Source: an uncultured Bacteroidales bacterium
GTDB lineage: Bacteria > Bacteroidota > Bacteroidia > Bacteroidales > F082
Direction: 5' to 3'
NCBI GenBank assembly: GCA_900317155.1
Contig: ONFO01000016.1
Location: 1 to 64,000 of the forward strand
DNA: 64,000 nt
Made by a program: the position numbers and the translations under genes. The notes below the pieces were generated by a model. It saw only the letters and a list, made by a program, of their open reading frames with translations, was not told the origin of the DNA and did no database searches. Positions 1,088-64,000 of the stretch are shown in pieces; position 1 is the first letter of the stretch; every line of letters starts with the position of its first letter.

Positions 1088-3418
1088 ATGAAAAGATTTA
1101 TTACTTTCACCTGCTGCATGACCCTTGTTTTGGGCATACAAGCGCAGAACATCAGCGGAAAGGTCGTTGATGAAACCAACCAATCCATTCCCTACGCCAA
1201 TGTAGTGCAGATGAGCCAGGACTCGGCCTTTTTAAGCGGCTGTGTTACTGATGAAAATGGAACTTTCCAAATGCAAAAGGCTCAAAACGCGGCCTTGCTG
1301 AAAGTGTCCTTCATTGGCTACAAGGATAAATGGCTACCTCTTTCAGGAAAGCAATCCAATTTGGGCACCATCCAGCTTGAACTTGATGCCGTCAGCCTTA
1401 GCGAAGTGACGGTCAGCGCGGGGCTGCCCGATGTTTACATTAAAGGTGACGCGCAAGTGACCACGGTCGAGAACAGCATCCTCGCCGATGTGGGTGCTGC
1501 TGACGATGTTTTGGGCAAGATTCCAGGCATCGTCAAGGACGACGACAAACTGACGGTGTTCGGCAAGGGTGAGCCGCTGGTTTACATCAACGGGCGACAG
1601 GTGCGTGACTTCAGCGAATTGGAGCAACTCAACGCCAAGGACATACAGCGCGTGGAGTTGGTCACCAACCCAGGGGCGCGGTACGATGCCACGGTCGGGG
1701 CGGTGGTGCGTATCGTCACCAAGAAAAACCCCAATGAGGGCTTGGGCGTGGATGTGCGCTCATCGGTTTATCAATCGGCGGCCAACACCGACCTGCGCGA
1801 CATCGTAAGCCTCAACTATCGCAAGAACGGCTGGCAACTGTTGGCCACCATCGATTACCGCAACATGAAGTCCTTGCAGCACTCCAACATCATCCAGGAA
1901 AACAAGGTGGAAAACGACTGGCTTCAGCAGAACACCTTACAAGAAGACACGCGGGATGCCCACATCTCCAGCGTGTTTGAGGCCAACTATTCCTTCAATC
2001 CCGACCACATCGTTGGCGTGCGCTACAGCCCTACTTTCTGGGCGGTGATGAGCGATTCCATTCATATCAACAGCGCGGTCAAGATGGACGGAGCCTATTA
2101 CGACCAATGGGAAAGCCGCCAACAGATGAAGTACGACTACGACATGGGGCATCGTGTCAATGCCTTCTATCTCGGTAAATTGGGAAACACCTCCATTGAC
2201 TTCAACGCCGATTACCTCAACAACGGCCACACCGTTTATAATAATGGCATTGAGCATAGCATCGAGTGGGACGACCGTGTCATCAAATCGGAAAACCCAG
2301 TCAAGAACAGACTTTTGGCCGGCAAACTGACCCTCAGCACACCACTTTGGGGTGGCGAGATTTCGTATGGCGGTCAGGCTTCGTTCACCTCGCGGCGCGA
2401 CGACTACATCAGCCATTCGGAGTATGCCGAAACTTCGTTCACACAGATTAAAGATAGAAATCTTGCCGCCTTTGTGGAATACAGCCGCATGGTGCCTTTC
2501 AGCGAGACATTGATGGGCATGTTCAGTGTGGGCTGCCGCTACGAGCACGCTGCCTACGACTATTTTGTGCAAGACCAGATCATCGATGGCCAAAGCCGCA
2601 AGTTCGACCATGTTTTCCCCAGTGCCTCGCTTTCGATGCAAATTGACAAGGTGCAACTCATGGCGAGTTATTCCGCGAAGACCAGCCGCCCGTCGTACCG
2701 TGACTTGCGCAACGCCGTGGAATACATCAACCGCTTCACGTTGCAGACGGGCAATCCCTTTCTTGAACCGAGCCTGACGCATGACTACTCGTTGGCTGCG
2801 TCATGGAAGTTCCTTCAGTGCTCCATTGGATTTCGGGATGAGCGCAATGTCATTATAGAATGGGCAGAGCCTTTGGACACCGACCCGAGCATTTCGGTAT
2901 TGAAGCCTCAAAACTTCGAGAGGATACCGAGGATGAATTTCATGCTGTCTGCGGCTCCAGAAATTGGGGTCTGGCACCCACAGTTGTCCCTTGGTTTCAA
3001 CAAGCAATGGTTTTCCGTCAGCAGCCAAACCGAAACGATTCCGTTGGACAAGATTTCCCCGTTTGGCGTCATCGACAACACTTTCGTTTTCTCAAAAGGT
3101 TGGAAGGCCAATCTTGAATTTGGCTGTGCGGGCAAGGGCTACATGGACAACTATTTCAGGTCCAAGAACATGTGGATTTGCAACATGTATGTGCAGAAAT
3201 CCTTGTTGGACAATGCCATGACGATTACTTTGGGTGTCAATGACCTGTTCAACCAGTCGGGTTATTATTATGACACTTATTATCCGACTTTGCGGATTTA
3301 CAAAAGCGGCACCTACGATTCCCGCGAAGTCTACCTGACTTTGCGTTACCGCCTGAAGGCCAAGACCAGCAAGTATCGCGGAAGTTTGGCGGGAGAGGAA
3401 GAAAGACAAAGGCTGTGA
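1088..3418 (+). CDS. TonB-dependent outer-membrane receptor (OMP beta-barrel family, carboxypeptidase-regulatory N-terminus)
   Basis: 776 residues. A signal peptide ends near residue 20 (GIQAQ). It is followed by a CarboxypepD_reg-like beta-sandwich (about 21-105, NISGKVVDETNQSIPYANV), a plug domain (about 115-215, with GKIPGIVKDDDKLTVFGKGE and YINGRQVRD), and a barrel rich in aromatic and alternating residues to the C-terminus. This is the outer membrane beta-barrel family common in Bacteroidetes. It probably imports an unidentified substrate with TonB energy, and no SusD partner is present. A small lipoprotein starts 3 nt after its stop, so the two are probably cotranscribed. The upstream LuxR-type remnant may once have controlled it. 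Confidence 0.85.
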   Translation: MKRFITFTCCMTLVLGIQAQNISGKVVDETNQSIPYANVVQMSQDSAFLSGCVTDENGTFQMQKAQNAALLKVSFIGYKDKWLPLSGKQSNLGTIQLELDAVSLSEVTVSAGLPDVYIKGDAQVTTVENSILADVGAADDVLGKIPGIVKDDDKLTVFGKGEPLVYINGRQVRDFSELEQLNAKDIQRVELVTNPGARYDATVGAVVRIVTKKNPNEGLGVDVRSSVYQSAANTDLRDIVSLNYRKNGWQLLATIDYRNMKSLQHSNIIQENKVENDWLQQNTLQEDTRDAHISSVFEANYSFNPDHIVGVRYSPTFWAVMSDSIHINSAVKMDGAYYDQWESRQQMKYDYDMGHRVNAFYLGKLGNTSIDFNADYLNNGHTVYNNGIEHSIEWDDRVIKSENPVKNRLLAGKLTLSTPLWGGEISYGGQASFTSRRDDYISHSEYAETSFTQIKDRNLAAFVEYSRMVPFSETLMGMFSVGCRYEHAAYDYFVQDQIIDGQSRKFDHVFPSASLSMQIDKVQLMASYSAKTSRPSYRDLRNAVEYINRFTLQTGNPFLEPSLTHDYSLAASWKFLQCSIGFRDERNVIIEWAEPLDTDPSISVLKPQNFERIPRMNFMLSAAPEIGVWHPQLSLGFNKQWFSVSSQTETIPLDKISPFGVIDNTFVFSKGWKANLEFGCAGKGYMDNYFRSKNMWICNMYVQKSLLDNAMTITLGVNDLFNQSGYYYDTYYPTLRIYKSGTYDSREVYLTLRYRLKAKTSKYRGSLAGEEERQRL

Positions 3419-3421
3419 TTT

Positions 3422-3604
3422 ATGAAAACGACAAAGATATTCGCCTTGATGGCGGTTTTGATTTTGGCTGGATGCCGGGAAGGAAGAGACAAGGAATTGC
3501 CGCAAATGCCTGCCAGTGTTGACACCTCTGAATTCGATGAGGCTTATTATGAACGGATGCGGGTGTTTGAGAGGTTGTGCCCGGATGTGGAGCTGGATAA
3601 GTGA
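3422..3604 (+). CDS. small lipoprotein, unknown function
   Basis: 60 residues: a hydrophobic signal segment ending in the lipobox LAGC at about residues 15-18, then a short acidic mature part. It is presumably anchored in the outer membrane or the periplasmic face of the inner membrane. It starts 3 nt after the TonB receptor stop and is probably translated with it. No domain is recognised. Small lipoproteins of this sort often accompany Bacteroidetes receptors, but a role here is only inferred. Confidence 0.6.
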   Translation: MKTTKIFALMAVLILAGCREGRDKELPQMPASVDTSEFDEAYYERMRVFERLCPDVELDK

Positions 3605-3665
3605 AGGGGGATTGGATTTTTTTTCGATATGTGTACTTACATGCTATCGTGCTTACGAAGGGGCT

Positions 3666-3905
3666 ATGAGTGAAACCAAGGATTCTGAATTATTCATTTA
3701 TCCCAATCCGGCAAAGGAAAAGGTGACGATAGAAGGTATTGAGGCTACCGAAGTGGAGGTGTATAATGCCCTTGGGCAGCTGGTGAAGACCGTGCGCGAT
3801 GCGAATGAAATCAATGTTATTGGTTTGCCAGAAGGGGTTTATTTGGTGAGGATTACGGATATTGAAGGGAAAAAGCATGTGGCACGGGTGGCGGTTAAGG
3901 AATAA
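3666..3905 (+). pseudogene. orphan T9SS type A sorting domain
   Basis: From the ATG at 3666 the frame encodes 79 residues that are almost entirely a Por/T9SS C-terminal sorting domain: FIYPNPAKEKVTIEG, then VEVYNALGQLVKT, then GLPEGVYLVRI and a lysine-rich end. Such domains normally close a large secreted protein. Here there is no cargo and no signal peptide. The frame is open further 5' but reads as non-family sequence. I read it as the surviving 3' end of a deleted secreted-protein gene. A short expressed peptide cannot be excluded. Confidence 0.6.
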
Positions 3906-3911
3906 ATCGCT

Positions 3912-3984
3912 AAAATTTGTATTTTTTCATACATTATTCGACAAAATTTGTATTTTTGCATCTGCAATTATAGAAAATTTGTAT
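3912..3984 (+). repeat. three 11-bp direct repeats spaced exactly 31 bp (candidate operator)
   Basis: AAAATTTGTAT occurs at 3912-3922, 3943-3953 and 3974-3984. Each start is 31 bp after the last, about three helical turns, so all three sites face the same side of the helix. The middle copy overlaps the -7 box and the third overlaps the ATG of the AbiEi-like/Fic gene. Autoregulation by the winged-helix N-terminus of that protein is the simplest reading. Confidence 0.65.
3951..3959 (+). promoter_or_regulatory. -7 box of the Fic gene
   Basis: TATTTTTGC is a perfect TAnnTTTGC match 24 bp before the ATG at 3983. It overlaps the second 31-bp-spaced repeat. No clear -33 TTTG lies at the usual distance. 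Confidence 0.6.
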
Positions 3985-5458
3985 GAAAGAACTGGATTTG
4001 GATAAGGAAATTGTTTTTGCATCGTCCGACCCAGATGTGTCGCACGCTATCGCCCGCCTCATAAAACAGGAGAAATTGCGCAAGATAGCGCCACGTCTCT
4101 ATACGACAAACCTGATTGACAGCCCGGAGAGTATCGTCAGGCGCAATATTATGAATATCCTTATGTGGCGTTTCCCGGGAACGATTATCAGCCACCGAAG
4201 TGCGCGTGAGATGCGTTTGACAGCTAACGGCTATTTCTTTTTGACAGGTTCTTTCAACAAAAAGGTGACCGACTTGCCTGGCGTAGTAGTTGTTGTGGGC
4301 AAAGGCCCGGGAAATGACAAGGACGATATTGTGTTCGGTCAGATGTTTATTGCAAGCGAACACCGCTGGATGCTTGAGAACATGCAGGAGTCGCGCAGGA
4401 CTGAGGGGGATTCGAAGGTGTTGCCTGTCGATGTGATAGAAAAGAAACTTGGCAGCGTGCTGATTGCCAGCGGCGAAGCGGGTTTGAACTCATATCGCGA
4501 CACCTTGCGCGAAACTTCCGAAAGACTTGGCATGGATAAGGAGTTCAAAAAAATCAATGTGCTGATTTCAGCATTGCTGGCGACACATGATACAACCGCA
4601 CTCGCAACCACCTACGCAAAAGCTCTGTCGGTGGGTTTGAGATACGACGAAAACAGGAAACGGCTGTTCGAGACCCTCTATGACGCTTTGCAGGAGCAGC
4701 ACTTCGTTTCACGACCCATACAGCCGCAGTCGGAAAACGAATACCGCGACATCGCATTTTTCGAGAGTTATTTCTCCAATTACATCGAGGGAACGGAATT
4801 CGAGGTAGATGAAGCCAAGCGGATTGTCGAGACAGGCATCCCGATAGCGAACAGAAGCGAGGATTCGCATGATATCTTGGGCACGTTCCAGCTGGTATCG
4901 AACCGAAGCGAGATGCAGCGTTATCCGAAAACTCCACAGGAATTGATTGATATTCTGCGCCGTCGTCATGCCATACTGCTTTCAGGCCGCCCCGACCTTA
5001 ACCCTGGACAATTCAAGCAGGTGAACAACCGTGCGGGAAACACCGAGTTTGTCGATGTCAAACTGGTTCAAGGAACACTGGAAGTCGGATTCGATTACTA
5101 TGCTGCGCTGACCTCGCCGTTGGCCAAAGCCATATACATGATGTTCCTCATCAGCGAGACGCATCCCTTCAACGATGGTAACGGACGTACCGCCCGAGTG
5201 ATGATGAACGCTGAATTGTTCCGCGCTGGCGAAGCCAAAATCATAGTGCCAACCGTGTATCGTGAAGACTATCTGCTGTCGCTACGCAAGCTGAGCCGCC
5301 AAGGGGACCCCGCAACTTACATCAAAGTGATGGAAAAGATGCACCATTTCGGCCAAACGCTATATGGCCGCTCATTCGACGACCTTTTGTCATATTTGAA
5401 AAGCTGCAATGCTTTCGAAGACCCTGACAATGCGAAATTAAAGTTCTTAAAGCCATAG
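3983..5458 (+). CDS. Fic-domain AMPylase with AbiEi-like N-terminal domain
   Basis: 491 residues, cytoplasmic. Residues 1 to about 150 resemble the N-terminus of AbiEi/DUF6088 antitoxins: a winged-helix start (DVSHAIARLIKQEKLRKIAP) and a beta-rich part containing SHRSAREM. The rest is a Fic protein with the catalytic loop HPFNDGNGRTAR at 394-405, whose His and Arg residues are intact. The class II inhibitory motif S265-xxx-E269-G270 precedes it. The protein should therefore transfer AMP or another nucleotide to a target and restrain itself through Glu269. The repeats over its promoter suggest DNA binding by its own N-terminus, giving toxin and antitoxin-like repressor in one chain. A housekeeping AMPylator is the alternative. 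Confidence 0.8.
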   Translation: MKELDLDKEIVFASSDPDVSHAIARLIKQEKLRKIAPRLYTTNLIDSPESIVRRNIMNILMWRFPGTIISHRSAREMRLTANGYFFLTGSFNKKVTDLPGVVVVVGKGPGNDKDDIVFGQMFIASEHRWMLENMQESRRTEGDSKVLPVDVIEKKLGSVLIASGEAGLNSYRDTLRETSERLGMDKEFKKINVLISALLATHDTTALATTYAKALSVGLRYDENRKRLFETLYDALQEQHFVSRPIQPQSENEYRDIAFFESYFSNYIEGTEFEVDEAKRIVETGIPIANRSEDSHDILGTFQLVSNRSEMQRYPKTPQELIDILRRRHAILLSGRPDLNPGQFKQVNNRAGNTEFVDVKLVQGTLEVGFDYYAALTSPLAKAIYMMFLISETHPFNDGNGRTARVMMNAELFRAGEAKIIVPTVYREDYLLSLRKLSRQGDPATYIKVMEKMHHFGQTLYGRSFDDLLSYLKSCNAFEDPDNAKLKFLKP

Positions 5459-5792: not shown

Positions 5793-6362
5793 ATGAAAAA
5801 CGTATTAATAGTCCTTCTAATGGCGGTGGCCTATCTCGCCACATTCATCCTCGGTGCCTGCAGCGGAGCTATCCACCCTGCATGTTATGCGTATATCGGA
5901 GCTTTGCTGCCGCTGCTGACCGCGTTCATCTATCTCTTCACCTGCACCCGCATCCGCAGCTTCGGTGCGGCGACAGTTCTCAACGGATTCGTCTTCGTCC
6001 TGTTCTTGATAGCAGGCGAAGCTGATGTGGCTTACATCATCGGAACGGTTGTTTTGACTGCTTTGGCTGAGATACTCAGAAAAATCAAGGGATACGACAC
6101 GCTGAAGGGTGTCCGCTGGAGCTTCGTGCCCTTCGCTTTCTCGTTTTTCGCTTACACCGCCCATTGGTGGACGGACACAGAAGGCGCGCTTGCCGCTGCC
6201 GTCGAGGAAATGCCTACCGGATACGATGAGCTGATGAAACCTGTCATCGAGAACATTCCTGTGCTGATTGTTGTGTTGGTTTTGACCATTCTCGTTGCCA
6301 TCTTGGCTATGCGACTGGTCGAGCGTGCGATGAAAAAGCAGGCTGCTTTACTGAATCAATGA
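5793..6362 (+). CDS. MptD-family ECF transporter S component
   Basis: 189 residues from the ATG at 5793; an upstream in-frame ATG at 5763 would add 10 polar residues before the first helix. About six hydrophobic helices are visible, with the AEILRKIKGYDTLKGV loop and the C-terminal pattern of the MptD/Trep_Strep membrane family. These are substrate-binding S components of energy-coupling-factor importers. No EcfA or EcfT gene is in the window, so energising subunits must be shared from elsewhere. It begins a tight run: the methyltransferase starts 4 nt after its stop and the ATC-hydrolase-like gene follows. Substrate unknown. Confidence 0.7.
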   Translation: MKNVLIVLLMAVAYLATFILGACSGAIHPACYAYIGALLPLLTAFIYLFTCTRIRSFGAATVLNGFVFVLFLIAGEADVAYIIGTVVLTALAEILRKIKGYDTLKGVRWSFVPFAFSFFAYTAHWWTDTEGALAAAVEEMPTGYDELMKPVIENIPVLIVVLVLTILVAILAMRLVERAMKKQAALLNQ

Positions 6363-6366
6363 AATC

Positions 6367-7158
6367 ATGAAGCCTAACTATAAGAACTGGATGCCCAAAG
6401 GCATGATACTTGGGACTTTTGGAGGCGCGGTGGCCTGCCTGATATTGTTCCTGGTCTTTGGCGTGAGCGGATTGCTTGCCGCAGGAACGCTGAAGACTGT
6501 CCTGAAAATCGTTTTCCTTGTTCTCGCCATCGTGCTGGCTTTGGTGACACTTTGGATGTGGCTGTTGTATCGTGCTTTCTCCTACGACGGTAAACGGCAG
6601 ATGTCAAAACAGATCATTGACGGCGTTGCCGCTTATGTCATCCTTCCCGAAGGAGGCAAAGGTCTTGATGTTGGTTGTGGCAGCGGTGCACTGGCCATCG
6701 CCTGCGCCAAACGCAATCCTATGGCCAAGATGGTCGGCATTGACCGTTGGGGTATGGAATATGCCTCTTATAGCCTTGCCTTATGTGAACAAAATGCAAA
6801 AGCCGAGGGTGTGAGCAACACCAGTTTCGCCCAAGGCAACGCTGTGAAACTCGACTATGCCGACGAGACTTTCGATGCGGTGACCAGCAACTATGTCTAT
6901 CACAACATCCCGAGCCGTGACCGACAGACTATTTTGTTGGAAACGCTGCGTGTGCTGAAGAAGGGCGGTACCTTTGCCATCCATGACATTTTCTCCAAAG
7001 TCAACTATGGCGACATGAAAGCCTTCGTGCAGCGACTGAAAGACATGGGCTACGAAGAAGTGGAGCTCATCGACACCACCAACGGCATGTTCATGACCCC
7101 GTGGGAAGCCCGATGGATGGCTTTAAGCGGGTCGGCGATATTGAAAGGAAAGAAGTAA
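6367..7158 (+). CDS. membrane-associated class I SAM methyltransferase
   Basis: 263 residues. Two hydrophobic helices at about 14-37 and 43-66 precede a Rossmann methyltransferase domain with motif I LDVGCGSGALAIACA at about 100-114, GIDRWGMEY as motif II, an acidic VTSNYVYHNI region, and LKKGGTFAIHD. It would methylate a small molecule at the cytoplasmic face of the membrane. It sits 4 nt downstream of the MptD-type S component and 8 nt upstream of the next gene, so the three are probably one operon. The substrate may be what the transporter brings in; that is inference. Confidence 0.7.
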   Translation: MKPNYKNWMPKGMILGTFGGAVACLILFLVFGVSGLLAAGTLKTVLKIVFLVLAIVLALVTLWMWLLYRAFSYDGKRQMSKQIIDGVAAYVILPEGGKGLDVGCGSGALAIACAKRNPMAKMVGIDRWGMEYASYSLALCEQNAKAEGVSNTSFAQGNAVKLDYADETFDAVTSNYVYHNIPSRDRQTILLETLRVLKKGGTFAIHDIFSKVNYGDMKAFVQRLKDMGYEEVELIDTTNGMFMTPWEARWMALSGSAILKGKK

Positions 7159-7166
7159 CTACTGTT

Positions 7167-7796
7167 ATGAAGGAATACACGCCATTAAAGATGATTCGTG
7201 CTGGGCGTTATAAAGTTTGCTTTGCAGCACTGGTACCAGAATTACAACAGGAAGTGCTACGGCGTATGGAAACGCTGATATTGGAGAATGCAGAATGGTG
7301 TGACCGTGGTAATTACGGGCATCTATGTAATATTCTTCCTACTATCGCTATTGACGAGGTGTTACAGGCGCACGGCAAGACAGCGGAAGAAGCTTTTGAA
7401 ATCATTTCCACACACATGTGGGCTGCTCTCACGCCGGAGACATACATAAAACTCTCCCGACTACCGTTCTTCCTTACGGTTATGAGGAAGATTATCCCTT
7501 TGGGGTTCAGATACGGTTCAGGCGCAGGATGGAAATACGTATGGCATCCCGATGACCCCAAAGACCGCTATCATTTTGAGACACTGGAGTGTTTGTACTG
7601 GCACATCTTCACGAAATATGGCGTCTTGGAGCGGTTCGGCCCCATGTTCTGCCGCAGCGACATCATCAACTATGGCAATTTGTACAATATAGATTTCATC
7701 CGCACACAGACTCTTTGTCAGGGTGGTGACAAATGCGATTTCTGCTTTGTCCGCCACGGAAAGGATGAAGTATGGGAGCGGACGAAAAGTATCTGA
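7167..7796 (+). CDS. L-2-amino-thiazoline-4-carboxylic acid hydrolase-like protein
   Basis: 209 residues from the ATG at 7167; the frame is open further upstream inside the methyltransferase gene. The layout fits the ATC hydrolase family (PF14196): an N-terminal helical part, a central HPDDPKDRYHFETLECLYWHIF segment read in pieces, and the typical C-terminal GGDKCDFCFVRHG with clustered cysteines. Characterised members open the thiazoline ring of L-ATC on the way to cysteine, but most family members are untested. It is cytoplasmic, with no signal peptide. It is third in the run with the S component and methyltransferase, which suggests a shared small-molecule substrate. Confidence 0.6.
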   Translation: MKEYTPLKMIRAGRYKVCFAALVPELQQEVLRRMETLILENAEWCDRGNYGHLCNILPTIAIDEVLQAHGKTAEEAFEIISTHMWAALTPETYIKLSRLPFFLTVMRKIIPLGFRYGSGAGWKYVWHPDDPKDRYHFETLECLYWHIFTKYGVLERFGPMFCRSDIINYGNLYNIDFIRTQTLCQGGDKCDFCFVRHGKDEVWERTKSI

Positions 7797-8030
7797 TTAA
7801 ACCATAATACTGGAAATGACACAAAAGTTACTGCTCATCATCTTGTTTTGTCTTTCGACGAGCATTCAAGCTCAAAACCGTCAGCGTTTTGATGGCGGCA
7901 TGATGGTACACACGGGATATTTGCAGAATCATTTCAGCGTGTTGGAGGGCATGCATTGCAACCATTGCAAAGCTGCCTGTGAGCAGTCAGTCGGCAAAGT
8001 GAAAGGCGTCACCTCCTTGCGGCGGTTTTG

Positions 8031-8052
8031 TTTTTTCGGATTACCGAAAAAA
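8031..8052. promoter_or_regulatory. 22-bp perfect palindrome in the ZIP promoter
   Basis: TTTTTTCGG, a 4-nt ATTA centre, then CCGAAAAAA: two perfect 9-bp arms. It lies 4 bp upstream of the -7 box of the ZIP gene, in the -33/-7 spacer region, where a metal-responsive repressor would block transcription. It could also act as a hairpin ending transcription of the remnant upstream. Confidence 0.55.
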
Positions 8053-8055
8053 GCC

Positions 8056-8064
8056 TACCTTTGC
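8056..8064 (+). promoter_or_regulatory. -7 box of the ZIP gene
   Basis: TACCTTTGC matches the Bacteroidetes -7 consensus, 24 bp before the ATG at 8088. A TTTG at 8027-8030 lies 25 bp upstream, a little long for a -33 element. Confidence 0.55.
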
Positions 8065-8087
8065 AGTCTAAACTGTTACTTATCATT

Positions 8088-8864
8088 ATGGGCACTGCCA
8101 TCGGTTTATTGATTCCTTTGTTGGGCACCATGCTCGGTGCGGCTTTCGTCTTTTTCATGAAGAAAGACATGTCGCCGAGGTTACAGAAATCGCTGTTGGG
8201 TTTCGCATCTGGCGTGATGATAGCCGCTTCGGTTTGGTCGTTGCTCATCCCTGCCATTGAGATGCGGTCAGAGAGTGGAGGTTGGGCGGTATTGCCCGCT
8301 GCAATAGGCTTCCTTGCGGGTGTCGGTTTCTTGCTGCTTTTGGACGAACTCACACCACACCTGCACCTCGGCTCATCAAAGCCCGAGGGACCGCGATCCA
8401 AACTCTCCCGCACGGCGATGTTGGCTTTGGCCGTCACCCTCCACAACTTGCCCGAGGGCATGGCAGTGGGTGTGGTGTTTGCCGCTGCGTCGCAAGGTGC
8501 CGAAAGTGTTAATTTGGCCAGCGCTGTGGCGGTTTCACTCGGCATCGCCATCCAAAACATCCCCGAAGGGGCCATCATCTCCATGCCTATGTGTGCCGAG
8601 GGCAACAACAAGGCAAAGTCTTTCCTTATCGGCAGCCTGAGTGGGGTAGTGGAGCCACTTGGTGGTTTATTAGTTGTGTTGTTGGCTGCTTGGCTGACAC
8701 CCATTCTTCCTTATATGCTCGCCTTCGCCGCTGGTGCCATGTGCTATGTAGTCGTCGAGGAGCTGATTCCCGAGGCTTCATCGGGCGAGCATTCCAACCT
8801 CAGCACTATTGGTTTTGCCATAGGGTTTGTGCTGATGATGGTGTTGGATGTGGTGATGGGATAA
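8088..8864 (+). CDS. ZIP-family metal transporter
   Basis: 258 residues. The ATG at 8088 (MGTAIGLLIPLLGTMLGAAF) starts the first helix and lies just downstream of the -7 box. Eight helices are expected. The metal-site signatures HNLPEGMAVG (helix 4) and NIPEGAIIS (helix 5) are present, as in the GufA/ZupT/ZIP11 branch. It is an inner-membrane importer of zinc or another divalent metal; specificity cannot be read. Neighbours include an HMA remnant upstream and a zinc-type TonB receptor 0.9 kb downstream on the other strand. A broken second copy lies at 12891-13145. The palindrome in its promoter suggests metal regulation. Confidence 0.85.
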   Translation: MGTAIGLLIPLLGTMLGAAFVFFMKKDMSPRLQKSLLGFASGVMIAASVWSLLIPAIEMRSESGGWAVLPAAIGFLAGVGFLLLLDELTPHLHLGSSKPEGPRSKLSRTAMLALAVTLHNLPEGMAVGVVFAAASQGAESVNLASAVAVSLGIAIQNIPEGAIISMPMCAEGNNKAKSFLIGSLSGVVEPLGGLLVVLLAAWLTPILPYMLAFAAGAMCYVVVEELIPEASSGEHSNLSTIGFAIGFVLMMVLDVVMG

Positions 8865-8877
8865 TCGCCTTTTGTGC

Positions 8878-9504
8878 TTATTTCTCCGCCGTCACCATCA
8901 GCCAGTGTTTGGCTTCGTCTTTCCGAATATCGATGCCCTTGAAGCCAGCATTTGACAGATGCAACCTGATTTCCTCCGGTTTGTAGGTGTGCATTCCCTC
9001 GATGAGGCTTTCCCATTTGGCATCCATCGGTCCCGAGCCGTCCGACTCGTTGACGATGACAAATTGTCCACCGGGTTTGAGCACCCTTTTCACCTCACCA
9101 AAGCAATGCTCGATGTCGGGCCAGAAATAGATGGTCTCGAAGGCGGTGACGAGGTCGAAGGTGTTCTCTCCGAAAGGCAGTTTGACCACACTGGCCTCTT
9201 GCACCTTGCAGCGCCCCTCTGCGATGGCTTTGGCGTTCACTTTGGAAGACTTTGCCACCGACACAGATGAATAGTCGATGCCTTGCACCACGCCTTTCGG
9301 GGCGTGTTGCAACAGCCGAGCGATGTTGGCGCCACCGCCACAACCGATATCCAAGATTTGGTCGTCTTCCTTGATTTGCACTGACGACAAGGCCCAGTTG
9401 GCCATTTGGGCGTGACCGCCGCCGTTCATCCCGTTCACCATCATTTTGCCAAAGAAGCCTTCGGGCTTGCGCGTATTGCTGAAAATCTTACTAAGTAATC
9501 CCAT
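8878..9504 (-). CDS. class I SAM-dependent methyltransferase
   Basis: 208 residues: motif I ILDIGCGGGANIARLL at about 54-69, GIDYSSVSV as motif II, VKLPFGENTFDLVTAFETIY around motif IV, and LKPGGQFVIVNESDG. This is the UbiE/Methyltransf_11 fold acting on a small molecule. It converges with the ZIP gene, with 13 nt between the stops. A TAAATTTG box (complement of 9516-9523) could serve as -7, giving a very short leader. The substrate is not evident from sequence. Confidence 0.75.
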   Translation of the reverse strand: MGLLSKIFSNTRKPEGFFGKMMVNGMNGGGHAQMANWALSSVQIKEDDQILDIGCGGGANIARLLQHAPKGVVQGIDYSSVSVAKSSKVNAKAIAEGRCKVQEASVVKLPFGENTFDLVTAFETIYFWPDIEHCFGEVKRVLKPGGQFVIVNESDGSGPMDAKWESLIEGMHTYKPEEIRLHLSNAGFKGIDIRKDEAKHWLMVTAEK

Positions 9505-9518
9505 ATGTAACCAATCAA

Positions 9519-9686
9519 ATTTAAACTACATGTTTTTTGACGCTGGACACGGGACTTCAGGACTTTTTGACCATGACTATGACCGCTTTCACGGGAATGC
9601 TGAATTTTCAGCCCTTGGCCGAAACAATCATGGTCATAGTCACAAGTCATAGTCCCGTAATCTCGCGTCCAACATGTAAACTAAAT
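9519..9686. repeat. inverted-repeat element downstream of the zinc-type receptor gene
   Basis: Outer arms at 9519-9532 and 9673-9686 are imperfect complements, and an inner pair GACTATGACC (9575-9584) and GGTCATAGTC (9632-9641) is perfect. The element contains GACGC...GGAC and CATAGTCCCG...CGCGTC words shared with the element at 11893-12020. There is no coding capacity. It may act as a terminator for the receptor gene or be a non-autonomous mobile repeat. Confidence 0.5.
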
Positions 9687-9789
9687 AAACCCATTCACTT
9701 AATAAGTGCTGTGATTAATTCAGTTGCAAAAATCCGACGTTTTACCTTATCGCTACAATCCCAAGAAATAGTGATTTTTTCGACAAAAA

Positions 9790-44832: not shown

Positions 44833-44847
44833 AAGGTTCAAAACAAT

Positions 44848-45876
44848 ATGTCAGACTTGACCTTACATAGCAACACGGAATCCTTCATTGGCGACATCAA
44901 GCGGCTGGTGGAACAAGGGCGCAATGCGGCATACGGAGCCGTGAACGCCGTGATGATTGAGACCTATTGGCGCATAGGACAACGTATCGTGGAGCAAGAG
45001 CAAAAAGGCAAGGAACGCGCCGAATATGGAACGCAGTTGATTGAAATGCTTTCCGAGGAACTCACTAAAACATACGGTAAAGGATTCAGCAAACGTAATC
45101 TTCAGTATTTTAGAAGTTTCTATCTGACTTTCAATAACTTAGAAATTGTGCAAACGCGTTTGCACAATTTGAAGTGGTCTCATATCCTGACTACCTTGCG
45201 TGTAGAAGACCCCGTTGCGGCAAGGTGGTATTTGCAAACCGCTTCGCAGGAAATGTGGAGCGTACGCACCCTCGACCGTAACATCAGCACACAATATTTT
45301 GAACGTCATTTCAAGCAACCGCAGATTTTGGAAAACCCTGAAAACAAGGTGGTCCCTGACAAATTGGAGATTCTGAAAAGCCCCATCATGGCTGAATTTC
45401 TCGGCTTCAAGCATGACACCGACTTTTCGGAAACGGAGTTGGAAAAAGGCCTGATTTCGCATTTGCAGGATTTCTTGGTTGAGATGGGGCGTGGATTCGC
45501 GTTTGTGGCCCGTCAGCAGCATATCTTCACCGACATGGGCGACTTCTACATCGACCTTGTTTTCTACAACTATCTCTTGAAGTGCTTTGTCCTCATCGAC
45601 TTGAAGAAGGGACAAATCACCCACCAAGACGTGGGACAAATGGACATGTATGTGCGGATGTATGACGACCTGAAGCGCACCGAGGGCGACAACCCAACCA
45701 TTGGCATCGTGTTGTGCAGCGAGACCAGCAAGGACATTGCCCGTTACTCGATTCTGCACGACAGCGACAATCTTTTTGCCGCCAAATACATGCCGCTGAT
45801 GCCCACCGAGGAAGAACTGCGCCGCGAGATAGAGCAGCAAAAGGAATTGTATAGATTGCAACAAGAAAATAAATAA
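44848..45876 (+). CDS. YhcG-type PDDEXK nuclease domain protein (DUF1016)
   Basis: 342 residues, cytoplasmic. The N-terminal DUF1016_N helical domain (about 10-140) has NAVMIETYWRIGQRIVEQE and FSKRNLQYFRSFY. The C-terminal nuclease domain carries FLGFKHDTDFSETELEKGLI, GRGFAFVARQQHI, DFYIDLVFYNYLLKCFVLID and LKKGQITHQDVGQM, the E/D-xK-type core of the PDDEXK fold. Family members associate with restriction and mobile elements. Here it stands alone with its own promoter, after a terminator. The host target is unknown. Confidence 0.85.
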   Translation: MSDLTLHSNTESFIGDIKRLVEQGRNAAYGAVNAVMIETYWRIGQRIVEQEQKGKERAEYGTQLIEMLSEELTKTYGKGFSKRNLQYFRSFYLTFNNLEIVQTRLHNLKWSHILTTLRVEDPVAARWYLQTASQEMWSVRTLDRNISTQYFERHFKQPQILENPENKVVPDKLEILKSPIMAEFLGFKHDTDFSETELEKGLISHLQDFLVEMGRGFAFVARQQHIFTDMGDFYIDLVFYNYLLKCFVLIDLKKGQITHQDVGQMDMYVRMYDDLKRTEGDNPTIGIVLCSETSKDIARYSILHDSDNLFAAKYMPLMPTEEELRREIEQQKELYRLQQENK

Positions 45877-53780: not shown

Positions 53781-56039
53781 ATGGCAAATGCTGCTTACAC
53801 GGAAGACCAGGTTCGCGATTTGGCTCGAACAAAGCTCCATCTTGAAGAAACGGAATCGGCACAAGCTGGCGTTGGTCAACTTACTTCGTTCAATCAATTG
53901 GGCTTTCGGGGAGTAAAGGATCGTCCTGACGGATGGTATTTGCCAAACGAAACACACTATCCCGCTCTTATCCTTGAAGTTAAAGGCAGTAACATCAAGT
54001 TGGGTGAAAAGGAGCGCGAGGAACTTCAGAAAAACATTCGTATAGTTCAAACCCGATACAAACATGTAGTTGGGTTACTTTACAACGGGTACGAGTTAGA
54101 GGTTTATAAAGATGGCGAGTTGGTTGAAGGAGAGAACGAGTTGATGGACAAGGAACACTATTTGGGGCTGTTCTCCACCAACCGCATCAACAAAATGCTC
54201 ATTTATTCACTGACACACAGCATCAATGACACATTGCATTTCGATTTCCTCATCAAGAACCTCTATCACCGAATGATATTCACCGCTTGTGCATTGGTGG
54301 CCAAACGTTATGGTGCCGTGTTGGTGAAAGGCATGTCTTTTAGGCTGTTTACCACCGCCATTCGTGAAACCTTGGAGAGTTCTTTGTCGGAGGATTTGGC
54401 AAAGAATCAGAAACTTCAAATATTGATAGACGTTTTTTCAGAAATCAAACTGAACACACAATGCAAACAAGATGCTATCAATCAGTTCATTGAAGATGTT
54501 TCAAAGATTTCTGACAACATCAATTCTGATTTTTGGAATGGTGAGGACGTGATGGCCATTTTCTTCAACGAGTTTAACCGCTATAAAGCCAAATCGGAGT
54601 CAGGACAGGTGTTCACTCCTGATCACATCACATCCTTCATGTATCAGATTACCGATACGACAAAACAAGACACTGTGCTTGATGCGGCTTGTGGCAGTGG
54701 CGCTTTTCTTGTGAAAGCAATGTGCAATATGATCAAGGAGGCTGGTGGTGTCCGCACCCAAGAAGCCCGAGAGATTGCCCAAACACAACTTTACGGTATC
54801 GAATTCGACCGTGAAATATTCGCATTGGCCTGTGCCAATATGTTGATACACAAGGACGGGAAGACCAATCTGGAACACATGGACAGCCGTTCGGTGGATG
54901 CTGGATGGTGGATGCGCGACAAACCTATCACAAGAGTGCTGATGAATCCGCCATTCGAGAACAAATATGGATGTTTGGATATTGTGGAGAATGTGCTTTT
55001 CAATGTGCCTGCGGGAACAGTGTGTGCGTTCATTCTTCCCGATAACAAGCTTGAAAAAGCTCGTGGGCGTGTGCGCCGTTGGATGCAATTCCATAGACTG
55101 ACAAAGATTATCAAATTGCCGAAAGAAATCTTTTCAGGGGTTACCACAAGTATCTTCATGTTTACGGTGGGCACACCCCAACGCAAGCAGGAAATCTTCA
55201 CCTGCTATATGGCCGAGGACGGTTTGGAGACCATCAAGAACCAAGGCCGTCACGACATTCGTGGTCGGTGGGAAGCCATTGAGCAACAGTGGGTGGACAT
55301 CGTCCGCAAACAGGCAGGTAGCGACACTATCAAATGGATAAGCCCCGATGAACATCTGAGCTATCAAGAGGATATTGAAGTGCCGATGCCCACTCGTGCC
55401 GATTTTATGAAGCGCACATTGGCATACGCTCTGTTCAAGCAAGAAATTGAGGAACAGGAGTTTTTCGAAAACGCAAAGGATCACATGTTATATGGCACTC
55501 CTTTGGCCGAAGAGTACGAACCATTTTTTGAGTCTGTCAAGGAAAACGAGATTCCGCTCAATACTGAACATTGGAAAAGTTTCCGCATTGGAGGCAAAGA
55601 GGGCCTCTTTACCATTGCAAAAGGTAGTCGCCTGACCAAAGCTGACCAACGTGATGGACGCATCAATTATGTGGGTGCATCGGCCTTCAACAATGGTATC
55701 ACCAACCATATAGGCAACGACGACCAACTCTGTCAGGCTGGCACCATTTCGGTTTGTTACAATGGCTCCATCGGCGAAGCATTCTATCAAGATGAACCCT
55801 ACTGGGCTACAGACGATGTAAATGTGTTGATGCCCAAATTCCAAATTACGCCGCATATTGCCATTTTCATCGCCACGGTCATCAAGAACGAAAGCGTGAA
55901 ATATGCCTTTAACAACAAGTGGACCAAGGAATTGATGGAGCAATCTGAAATAGTCCTACCCGCAAAAGCAGACGGAACACCAGACTTTGAATTTATGGAG
56001 CACTATATCCAGTCATTGCCTTATTCGAGATTTTTCTAA
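53781..56039 (+). CDS. single-chain type IIG restriction-modification enzyme
   Basis: 752 residues, cytoplasmic. The N-terminal nuclease region has PALILEVKGSN with E66-V-K68 of a PDDEXK-like core. A helical linker follows. The N6-adenine methylase domain has motif I VLDAACGSGAF (301-309 region) and catalytic motif IV NPPF (389-392). The C-terminal part (about 610-750, NYVGASAFNNGITNHIGNDD, SVCYNGSIGEAFYQDEP) is a single S-subunit-like target-recognition half. Cutting, methylation and recognition would therefore lie in one chain, as in BcgI/HaeIV-like or type IIG enzymes; no separate S or R gene is adjacent. If the nuclease were inactive it would be an orphan methylase. Confidence 0.8.
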   Translation: MANAAYTEDQVRDLARTKLHLEETESAQAGVGQLTSFNQLGFRGVKDRPDGWYLPNETHYPALILEVKGSNIKLGEKEREELQKNIRIVQTRYKHVVGLLYNGYELEVYKDGELVEGENELMDKEHYLGLFSTNRINKMLIYSLTHSINDTLHFDFLIKNLYHRMIFTACALVAKRYGAVLVKGMSFRLFTTAIRETLESSLSEDLAKNQKLQILIDVFSEIKLNTQCKQDAINQFIEDVSKISDNINSDFWNGEDVMAIFFNEFNRYKAKSESGQVFTPDHITSFMYQITDTTKQDTVLDAACGSGAFLVKAMCNMIKEAGGVRTQEAREIAQTQLYGIEFDREIFALACANMLIHKDGKTNLEHMDSRSVDAGWWMRDKPITRVLMNPPFENKYGCLDIVENVLFNVPAGTVCAFILPDNKLEKARGRVRRWMQFHRLTKIIKLPKEIFSGVTTSIFMFTVGTPQRKQEIFTCYMAEDGLETIKNQGRHDIRGRWEAIEQQWVDIVRKQAGSDTIKWISPDEHLSYQEDIEVPMPTRADFMKRTLAYALFKQEIEEQEFFENAKDHMLYGTPLAEEYEPFFESVKENEIPLNTEHWKSFRIGGKEGLFTIAKGSRLTKADQRDGRINYVGASAFNNGITNHIGNDDQLCQAGTISVCYNGSIGEAFYQDEPYWATDDVNVLMPKFQITPHIAIFIATVIKNESVKYAFNNKWTKELMEQSEIVLPAKADGTPDFEFMEHYIQSLPYSRFF

Positions 56040-60671: not shown

Positions 60672-61928
60672 TTACATGTCTAAACTATCCTCCTTGAGGA
60701 GAAAATCGAACAGCCCAATAGTGAGTATCCCATCTTCGTTTCTGCGCGGCATGATGTGCTCTTTGACAACAATAACCTTCTTGAATGAATCATTGATGTT
60801 TGTTAGCGAACGGGATTCTTGTATTTCCTTTTCTCTATCAGGGATTGACAAAGCCGATTGCACATAATACTTTTTGCTTCCGAGGTTGGCAATAAAATCG
60901 ACTTCAAGCTGGACACGAATCCATTTCCCATCCTTGTCCTGCTTTTTTATCTCTACCATCCCGACATCCACATTGTAACCACGGGTAATCAGTTCGTTGT
61001 AAATGATATTCTCCATGATATGCGATTCCTCCTGTTGGCGCATATTGAGAATGGCATTTCTCAAACCTATGTCAGAAAAATAATACTTTGAAAGCGTGTT
61101 GATATACTTTTTGCCTTTGATATCATAGCGAATGGCCTTGTTTACAAGGAATGATTCCAACAGATAGCCAAGGTAATTAGAAATAGTCTTGTTGGTGATA
61201 TTTAACTTCTTTATGCTTTTGAAAGTATTCGATAGTTTTGTTGGGTTGCAAGGTGAGCCAATGGATGAGGCCAAAATATGCACTAACTCACGCATTTCAT
61301 GTTCATTCTGTACTTTATGTCGCTCAATGATGTCTGCCAGATAAACGGTCTCGAACAAATCCTGCAAATAGTTCACTTTCTTTTGTTCAGTGTCAAAAGA
61401 TTGGACAAGTGGCAATCCGCCGTAAGTATAGTATTCGCGCCAAGCTTCTTGTTTGTCTCCGCCTTTTGCTGAATAGAATTCCGCAAACGAAAGTGGATTC
61501 ACGTGAATTGTTTCGCCTCGACCGCGAAACTCGGTCGGAATGTCGGATGAAAGGAAGTGTGAGTTGCTCCCAGTCACGTAAGTGTCGGCGTTGTCAATAT
61601 GCCGGAAACTATTCAGAACATCAACGAATTCATCCATCAGCTGAACCTCATCGATAATGATATAGTAAAGCTCCTTGTCCTTGATTTTGCTGTGGACATA
61701 ATGAAGCATCGCATCTGGATTCCTTAATTCTTTGTTCATGCGGTCTTCAAGGTCAACACGAATAATGTGGTCTTCAGCCACACCATTTTCCAACAGAAAG
61801 CGATAAAACAGAACGTTCAGGAGATACGATTTGCCACACCTGCGGATTCCCGTAACCACTTTGACGAGACCGTTCTGACGGCTTTCTATCAGCTGTTGAA
61901 GATATCTGTCTCTTTTAATTTCCACCAT
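60672..61928 (-). CDS. AAA_14/DUF4143 ATP-binding protein
   Basis: 418 residues, cytoplasmic. Walker A GIRRCGKS at 27-34, Walker B YYIIIDEVQ near residue 95, sensor region VTGSNSHFLSSD, and FRGRGETIHVNPLSFAEFY typical of the AAA_14 family. The C-terminal DUF4143 region has a PDDEXK-like strand LEVDFIANLGSKKYYVQ. The family is common, often in defence or mobile contexts, with no settled function. Its promoter lies between two inverted copies of a 14-bp palindrome, suggesting tight control, perhaps by itself. Confidence 0.85.
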   Translation of the reverse strand: MVEIKRDRYLQQLIESRQNGLVKVVTGIRRCGKSYLLNVLFYRFLLENGVAEDHIIRVDLEDRMNKELRNPDAMLHYVHSKIKDKELYYIIIDEVQLMDEFVDVLNSFRHIDNADTYVTGSNSHFLSSDIPTEFRGRGETIHVNPLSFAEFYSAKGGDKQEAWREYYTYGGLPLVQSFDTEQKKVNYLQDLFETVYLADIIERHKVQNEHEMRELVHILASSIGSPCNPTKLSNTFKSIKKLNITNKTISNYLGYLLESFLVNKAIRYDIKGKKYINTLSKYYFSDIGLRNAILNMRQQEESHIMENIIYNELITRGYNVDVGMVEIKKQDKDGKWIRVQLEVDFIANLGSKKYYVQSALSIPDREKEIQESRSLTNINDSFKKVIVVKEHIMPRRNEDGILTIGLFDFLLKEDSLDM

Positions 61929-61943
61929 CTCATTCCTAAATTA

Positions 61944-62032
61944 TGCCATTATTGGCAATTATTGGTAATGCAAAAGTAATAAATAATTTCAATCGACCAA
62001 CTGCTTATGACTAAAAAGTGCCAATAATGGCA
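61944..62032 (-). promoter_or_regulatory. ATPase promoter flanked by two inverted 14-bp palindromes
   Basis: TGCCATTATTGGCA (61944-61957) and TGCCAATAATGGCA (62019-62032) are exact complements of each other; each has TGCCA/TGGCA arms. Between them lies a consensus minus-strand promoter: -7 TACTTTTGC (complement of 61970-61978) with -33 TTG (complement of 61998-62000) at 19 bp. One site is in the leader and one upstream, a layout suited to looping repression. Confidence 0.7.
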
Positions 62033-62279: not shown

Positions 62280-62288
62280 TATTTTTGC
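62280..62288 (+). promoter_or_regulatory. -7 box of the trypsin-like protease gene
   Basis: TATTTTTGC, 14 bp before the ATG at 62303. No other signal is visible between the charged fragment and this box. Confidence 0.6.
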
Positions 62289-62302: not shown

Positions 62303-63325
62303 ATGGAATTACTGGTACCAAAACTATATGATTTCTTTGATTATCAAAATGATGGCAATTTAGGCAGGACTCTGTTCGAGTTTGTAGAATCACGCCAAGA
62401 TTGTTTCTTCGATGATAAGTATGGCTATCGAAACATCAACATGGGAAAAGTCTCATACATTTCTTCCATTTGTCGGAAAATGGCCGAAGATAATTTACTG
62501 ATACGATTAAAAACGAATGGTGTTGAATGTTTTAACGATGTTTATTTTGTCAATTTACGGCCAGACAATTTCCAATATCCCGAACTGTTTAGTTCTCAAC
62601 TTGCTTATGGTTATTATGATTTCGCATACAATGGATTTCCTTTTACTCGGGCTCATTTCACGAATTCAGTCGTCCCAGTAATTGGAATAAACAAAAAGGG
62701 AGATTATGATATAGGAACAGCCTATTATATAGATGACAATGAATTTGTCACTGCAGCCCATTGTATAACAGGCTTGAACAAGTTTTCTTTACAATATCAG
62801 AATGGCAAGCGGATAAAAGTGTCGGCAGTACTATTTCCTGACAATGACAATATTGACCTTGCTATCATCAAATCAGAGGAAGACATCCAGTTAACACCAT
62901 TTATGTTAGGAGAACCTGGTGTTTTAGATGATATACTTGTTATGGGTTACCCTCCTATCCCCGGAATGGACACTGTATTAATATCAGAGACGGGGACAGT
63001 CAATACTTTTATAACGCCAGCTCAAAAAGCTTCAGACGGACAAATTATTGCCGAAACAAAGTCGTATTTACCTCCGATGGATTACTTTATGATTAATTGT
63101 CGAGTTAAAGGCGGTAATAGCGGTGGTCCTGTAATTAATAAACATGGATTAGTTATTGGCACAGTCGTTTCTTTAGTTTTTGATTCCAAAGGAGGTTCCG
63201 ATGGTGGTCGTTATGATCTTATGGGGTTTGGAACTTGTATTTCATCAGAGCACATACCTAAAATACATGAAAATCACACAAAGAAAGAATTTGGTTATGA
63301 TGGGGATTTTTATTTTTTGAAATAG
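62303..63325 (+). CDS. cytoplasmic trypsin-like serine protease with N-terminal winged-helix-like domain
   Basis: 340 residues and no signal peptide. The N-terminal 100 residues (LYDFFDYQNDGNLGRTLFEF; SYISSICRKMAEDNLLIRLK) look helical with a winged-helix-like end. The chymotrypsin-fold domain has all three catalytic residues: TAAHC (His153), NIDLAII (Asp185) and GGNSGGP (Ser273). A secreted HtrA-type protease would carry a signal peptide and PDZ; both are absent. Cytoplasmic trypsin domains in bacteria are often effectors or sensors of defence systems. The next gene, 212 nt on, encodes a STAS/HATPase-like protein. AT-rich relative to the window. Confidence 0.75.
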   Translation: MELLVPKLYDFFDYQNDGNLGRTLFEFVESRQDCFFDDKYGYRNINMGKVSYISSICRKMAEDNLLIRLKTNGVECFNDVYFVNLRPDNFQYPELFSSQLAYGYYDFAYNGFPFTRAHFTNSVVPVIGINKKGDYDIGTAYYIDDNEFVTAAHCITGLNKFSLQYQNGKRIKVSAVLFPDNDNIDLAIIKSEEDIQLTPFMLGEPGVLDDILVMGYPPIPGMDTVLISETGTVNTFITPAQKASDGQIIAETKSYLPPMDYFMINCRVKGGNSGGPVINKHGLVIGTVVSLVFDSKGGSDGGRYDLMGFGTCISSEHIPKIHENHTKKEFGYDGDFYFLK

Positions 63326-63454
63326 CAACTGCTCGATTATTGTAATTGAATGAAGGCGTACAATAAAGTATTTAATCAAACCTCAAACAGGTTCTCAGGA
63401 GGATTTTATCGAATTCGTCATTGGTCATCATTGTACAATTCAATTGATATCCCA

Positions 63455-63486
63455 TTTGATAGTTTCCAAATAATGTGTATTTTTGC
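63455..63486 (+). promoter_or_regulatory. consensus -33/-7 promoter of the last gene
   Basis: TTTG at 63455-63458 and TATTTTTGC at 63478-63486 at a 19-bp spacing, a full match to the Bacteroidetes promoter. The leader to the ATG at 63538 is about 45 nt. Confidence 0.65.
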
Positions 63487-63537
63487 ACTCTGAACGAATA
63501 CAAAGAATGTGAATTTACGCAAAGGAGGAAACTAATA

Positions 63538-64000
63538 ATGTATGTGTTGAAGATTCCACCTACGCTAAGAGCAGACTTAGAAGGATTTGAATTTCTCTCT
63601 GGTTTTCTTCCCAATGTGAATGAAAATGTTACAAAGGGAAAAGAGCTTTTTGTGGATTTTTCAGATTGTACTAGTATTGATGGGAACCTTGCAGCTGTTT
63701 TGGGGGCTCTTCTTGACAAGTCAGTACCGATTTCAAAAAGAGTGATGATAGGAACTCCCCGTAATAAAACCGTCAAAAAAGTGTTAGCACGTAATCACTT
63801 TCTTAGAGCATGGAGAGTTGATACCAAAGTGGAGGAACGGGAAAACTATGTTGAATATGCGAGATTTAAAAGCGATGTGTCGGCTATAGAATTCAAGTCA
63901 TATATTCAAGAGGGTTTGATAAAAAAGCAAAAGTTTCCGCAACATACTGATTTGGCAGGCGAAAAAATTGTCGAAAGTATATACGAAATTTATGCAAATG
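63538..64000 (+). CDS. STAS-like/HATPase-like protein, runs off the window
   Basis: Partial: 154 codons from the ATG at 63538 to the right edge with no stop. The first 80 residues (FLPNVNENVTKGKELFVDFS, TSIDGNLAAVLGALLDKSVP) resemble a STAS-like domain. The visible end (HTDLAGEKIVESIYEIYAN) looks like the first helix of a GHKL/histidine-kinase ATPase, whose N box usually reads ExxxNAxxH. A strong Shine-Dalgarno AGGAGG (63523-63528) lies 9 nt before the ATG, rare in this phylum. It probably signals together with the protease gene before it. Confidence 0.6.
   Translation, partial: MYVLKIPPTLRADLEGFEFLSGFLPNVNENVTKGKELFVDFSDCTSIDGNLAAVLGALLDKSVPISKRVMIGTPRNKTVKKVLARNHFLRAWRVDTKVEERENYVEYARFKSDVSAIEFKSYIQEGLIKKQKFPQHTDLAGEKIVESIYEIYAN

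Follow-up and report, generated by a model that had tools for sequence, protein, structure and literature searches.

An apparent protease-ATPase pair in an uncultured Bacteroidales bacterium is probably a vapKSC operon beside an independent protease gene

Our analysis indicates that the gene cut off at the edge of the window (the whole 64,000-nt stretch analyzed here, positions 1-64000 of an 82,116-base contig) is vapK, the opening gene of a vapKSC operon encoding a toxin-antitoxin/anti-phage system under kinase control, and that the trypsin-like serine protease gene ahead of it is an independent, probably horizontally acquired neighbor, a reading to which we assign a probability of roughly 0.9. 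The kinase's true partners are predicted to be an antitoxin of the STAS type and a PIN-domain toxin, encoded directly 3', past the window edge, and the gene was misread because the window ends within the first gene of the operon. This result settles the identity of the gene at the window edge and removes a tempting protease module. The operon adds an unremarkable but well-defined member to VapKSC, a kind of system published in 2026.

The gene content and order of the operon were obtained directly, as were the conserved residues of its kinase, its phospho-acceptor site and its PIN domain and, from the structure model, the predicted fold of the kinase. Reading was continued past position 64000, which completed the second gene as the first-pass annotation had proposed: vapK (63538..64000 in the window, 63538-64440 of the contig, plus strand) begins at ATG 63538, preceded by AAGGAGG, and encodes 300 aa with a STAS-like N-terminal part and a SpoIIAB-like GHKL kinase. 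It is followed beyond the window, on the same strand, by vapS (contig 64440-64793; 117 aa, DUF4325/STAS), which overlaps both of its neighbors, and by vapC (contig 64780-65313; 177 aa, PIN), which overlaps vapS. The ATPase domain read from the truncated gene is present in the complete one, so that the GHKL half of the proposed STAS-GHKL architecture stands, with a Pfam HATPase_c score under the cut-off. For the STAS-like half the matches are weak: STAS_2 (13.0 bits) is likewise under the cut-off, and the STAS proteins RsbS (E 0.034 and 0.066) and TM1442 (E 0.3) match the same N-terminal region. A Foldseek search with VapK ranked the topoisomerase subunit 1mu5 first (E 3.1e-4) and SpoIIAB right behind it (4.0e-4); TM-scores normalized to the query length were low for all matches. 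The modeled kinase fold is SpoIIAB-like. Profiles of VapS and VapC matched PDB 9z7o, which holds the Escherichia VapS and VapC, at E 2.8e-32 and 2.7e-28, respectively. Thr52 of VapS is the candidate phospho-acceptor, and Ser or Thr occupies this column in 91/92 rows; window VapS was aligned to chain A of 9z7o, in which the position of S48, the corresponding Escherichia residue, was deduced by subtracting an 18-residue tag. Asp20 of VapC (D28 in Escherichia, by alignment to chain C of 9z7o) and the other PIN acids are likewise conserved.

The three-gene order proved to be widespread. A survey of 395 genomes of the phylum found a kinase relative in 24, the window's own genome included, and a genome-wide scan by peptide pattern yielded 80 kinase loci, to which other searches added 28 (the two sets have at least seven contigs in common). 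The order kinase, DUF4325, PIN on one strand was present in 75 of the 80 scan loci, and the same order in 22 of the 28 (21 of 27 with the window excluded). A complete operon was not recognized in 5/80 and 6/28 loci: L105 and L144 stop at a contig edge, L141 and L145 consist of ATPase pieces only, L084 and L051 show no PIN gene, and L060 and L062-L065 are divergent. The 80 scan loci comprise 33 from Bacteroidota and others from many further phyla, including four that are archaeal by title, an assignment that rests on MAG labels; matches to the DUF4325 family were also found in the named control Methanosarcina acetivorans. Four scans of viral contigs gave no confirmed relative, and two phage records contain a vapKSC operon. 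The first, Streptococcus phage Javan172 (L151 3001-4793), carries a complete vapKSC adjoining an integrase gene, with a PIN ORF (4263-4793) that bears no PIN annotation in its record, and the second, MT837343 (L067 1420-3192), is an unverified 7-kb human fecal "Bacteriophage sp." scaffold that also carries the complete operon. In L114, a full vapKSC is accompanied by a second, divergent ATPase-DUF4325 pair in back-to-back arrangement (6015-7264 on the minus strand and 7959-9756 on the plus strand). DUF4325 also occurs within open frames of about 345-360 aa in many genomes (for example, L164-L171 and L174-L181), most of them from one genus of the phylum sample; VapS has 117 aa.

The operon was found in the literature only in the work of Chambers et al. 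on Escherichia sp. E4736 (EMBO J 2026, PMC13373217; PDB 9z7o), among the matches listed from titles and abstracts, with most subscription papers and preprints out of reach. The accessible part of that paper reports, for Escherichia only, that VapS inhibits VapC, that phosphorylation frees VapC, and that the system protects against phage. By the published model, VapS would keep the VapC PIN RNase inactive at rest (PMC13373217, as far as its accessible text goes). A stress signal would activate the SpoIIAB-like kinase VapK, which would then phosphorylate VapS at Thr52; VapS would release VapC, and free VapC would cut RNA, so that growth stops and phage spread is limited. For this copy, we infer by analogy all of the steps that go beyond the sequence evidence, including kinase activity, VapC release, and phage protection.

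The branch to which the window belongs may differ from the published system in the putative sensor. In the portion of PMC13373217 available, ssDNA sensing is assigned to F54 of VapK (equivalent to W68 of CapK) and is required for protection; VapK itself was insoluble and hence beyond testing there. We matched window column 54 to Escherichia F54 indirectly, via the relatives L052-L054 and not from Escherichia VapK. The Escherichia VapS is 52-53% identical to the VapS of L052-L054 and L057 and 30% identical to window VapS, and the L052-L054 kinases, the readable ones of this group, combine Arg at column 48 with Phe where the window has Val54. Because the scan pattern spans VapK columns 47-56, which biases residue counts over the 80 loci toward the window's type, the contrast was drawn from loci found without the motif, 14 of the window's type and 7 others. 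Column 54 held V, I, P, T or L in all 14 window-type loci, with no aromatic residue, and column 48 was acidic in 13, whereas all 7 other loci, Escherichia-like ones among them, combined an aromatic at column 54 with Arg at column 48. Excluded from this contrast were the divergent L060 (E48, S54), L062 (D48, V54), L063 (Y48, P54), L064 (D48, F54) and L065 (H48, P54), together with L057 (gap) and L049 (duplicate). Among 13 scan loci that matched only a second, distant pattern, column 54 was filled in 12, none of them with an aromatic, and column 48 was acidic in 11 of the 12. A FastTree tree, from which six rows that were broken or short (L057, L141, L143-L146) had been removed, placed the window within a supported 32-row set of the V/I/L type, nested in an 82-row set (support 97) that contains no aromatic, and the aromatic rows split into two other groups, not one. 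The Javan172 kinase, read by eye, has Tyr at column 54 and Asn at column 48; the automatic call of Val at column 54 is taken to be a misplaced row.

The residue credited with DNA-damage sensing thus seems to be missing from a whole kinase branch of the system, suggesting that ssDNA sensing works differently there or that the branch senses something else. Since VapK of this branch seems not to have the residue to which ssDNA stacking was attributed, ssDNA is not assured as the trigger. We considered that the branch could keep the same switch and be fired by something other than ssDNA through a changed sensing groove. The opposed residue patterns at columns 54 and 48 point that way. However, the column match is an indirect one, ssDNA could bind via other residues of the groove, the seven aromatic loci form two separate tree groups, and the divergent L064 has Phe54 together with Asp48, so that the link between the two residues is not a strict one. 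On balance, we regard a different trigger as possible but rather doubtful and, because column 54 was matched to F54 through relatives, offer it as a hypothesis. Put tentatively, VapKSC might comprise at least two types, with the window in a large and widespread branch (Bacteroidota, many other phyla, and loci titled as archaeal) that would combine a rebuilt groove and a signal other than ssDNA with the same VapS/VapC switch.

The first-pass annotation had paired vapK with the protease gene (62303..63325, plus strand; 340 aa; outside vapKSC) as a two-gene signaling or defense module, in which the ATPase would sense and the protease would act as effector. The two genes are adjacent on the same strand and share a low G+C content and similar promoter-like boxes, and several of the claims made about them held up. 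The protease has a Trypsin_2 domain (Pfam, E 2.4e-15), and its His153/Asp185/Ser273 triad is intact in the 340-aa translation; at its N terminus, where a winged helix had been suggested, the structure model is of poor quality. The box TATTTTTGC, which we take to be a Bacteroidetes-type -7 promoter element, lies before both genes as described, at 62280..62288 ahead of the protease gene and at 63478..63486, 3' of the protease stop and ahead of vapK (both plus strand). Both regions are AT-rich, with 36.3% G+C for the protease gene and 36.7% for vapK to vapC against 48.8% for the window. This low G+C content, together with rarity in the family (the own genome plus one weak match among 173 same-family genomes), suggests horizontal arrival.

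The shared features are outweighed by the neighborhoods, and we consider such a protease-kinase module very improbable. No protease relative was found in the 80 + 27 kinase loci (window aside), which span up to about 8 kb in either direction, or less where the contig stops; three weak matches, in L042, L080 and L081 (the latter two titled Flavobacterium), are full-length Peptidase_S46 proteins. The conserved co-occurrence that would have marked a module is thus absent from these loci, and the protease is ruled out as a partner on this ground; the signaling/defense idea holds for the second gene, whose constant partners are vapS and vapC. The box after the protease stop is a putative promoter of the operon's own. 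From the side of the protease, relatives occur in 14 plasmid records, and no match to VapK, VapS or VapC was found at the four plasmid loci whose neighborhoods were compared; Deinococcus gobiensis carries a protease relative and a kinase relative on separate plasmids. Protease relatives are rare, found at E <= 1e-5 in 6/173 same-family genomes, among which the window's own and a truncated copy in G066 score far above the others, and at E <= 1e-9 in 3/395 phylum genomes, own included. Trypsin proteins of about 330-346 aa like that of the window lie on Chryseobacterium, Klebsiella and Deinococcus plasmids (L012, L013, L014), with no common neighbor in the annotation seen. PADLOC matched the protease to RT-Protease_XI (59.4 bits), LmuA (38.8) and PDC-M35A (28.7), all over the trypsin part. 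RT-Protease_XI, presumably a reverse transcriptase domain fused to a trypsin domain, was rejected as an identity: the match is confined to profile positions 334-484 of 506, and the 340-aa protein has no reverse transcriptase family in Pfam.

The surrounding DNA holds several further genes. The AAA_14 ATPase noted beside the protease is indeed there, as an AAA_14/DUF4143 gene on the opposite strand (60672..61928, minus; PADLOC candidate PDC-S01, 385 bits), and the archaeal-titled contig L133 likewise has an AAA_14/DUF4143 gene (3046-4374, plus) a few genes 5' of vapKSC, which may be chance. An inverted repeat, TGCCAATAATGGCA, lies at 62019-62032 and is terminator-like on both strands; its reverse complement was seen by eye at 61944-61957, directly ahead of the AAA_14 gene start, and the two copies could be an operator pair. 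About 7.5 kb 5' of vapK, positions 53781-56039 (plus) encode a restriction-modification protein resembling Type IIG (PADLOC scores of 115 bits for REase_MTase_IIG and 99 bits for type II specificity), and 44839-45873 (plus) encode a protein matching PADLOC candidate PDC-S02 (440 bits). Past the window, a 438-aa ORF at contig 66020-67336 (L002 6020-7336) has an AAA_30-like start (24.5 bits) and a weakly lipoprotein-like middle (15.1 bits), both below cut-off, and may be a two-gene fusion scar. An ORF6N-domain protein matching PADLOC candidate PDC-S05 (328 bits) is encoded at contig 70537-71508 (minus; L002 10537-11508).

Among named systems, CapK/CapS resembles the window genes in having a GHKL kinase with a STAS part (weakly matched in the window protein) that acts on a STAS substrate. 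In the accessible text of PMC13373217 it differs by an N-terminal HTH in CapK and a wHTH in CapS, neither of which was found here, and by its output, which is a promoter and not a bound toxin. That the genes are themselves CapK/CapS, in which the kinase and a STAS repressor that binds DNA would control a neighboring immune operon, is very improbable despite this shared logic, given that the 300-aa kinase has no HTH ahead of its STAS-like part and the 117-aa STAS protein no wHTH (Pfam matches to E 1 include neither family), and that a PIN gene matching VapC of 9z7o comes next. VapBC type II toxin-antitoxin systems share the PIN-domain toxin; their antitoxin is VapB, in contrast to the STAS protein under kinase control here, and VapBC was rejected as an identity with the DUF4325/STAS partner of the window PIN gene. 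Compared with partner switching by SpoIIAB/SpoIIAA and RsbW/RsbV, VapK bears a STAS-like part of its own, and the switch acts on a PIN nuclease where those act on a sigma factor. The likeness to Escherichia VapKSC, as described in the accessible part of PMC13373217, extends to the same three-gene order, a GHKL kinase with a STAS-like N-terminal part (weakly matched in the window protein), a STAS antitoxin with a conserved Ser/Thr, and a PIN toxin with conserved acids. Set against this, window VapS, at 30% identity to that of Escherichia, has Thr as its candidate acceptor in place of Ser, and window VapK has Val at the presumed ssDNA column and Asp at column 48, where the Escherichia-like relatives have Arg.
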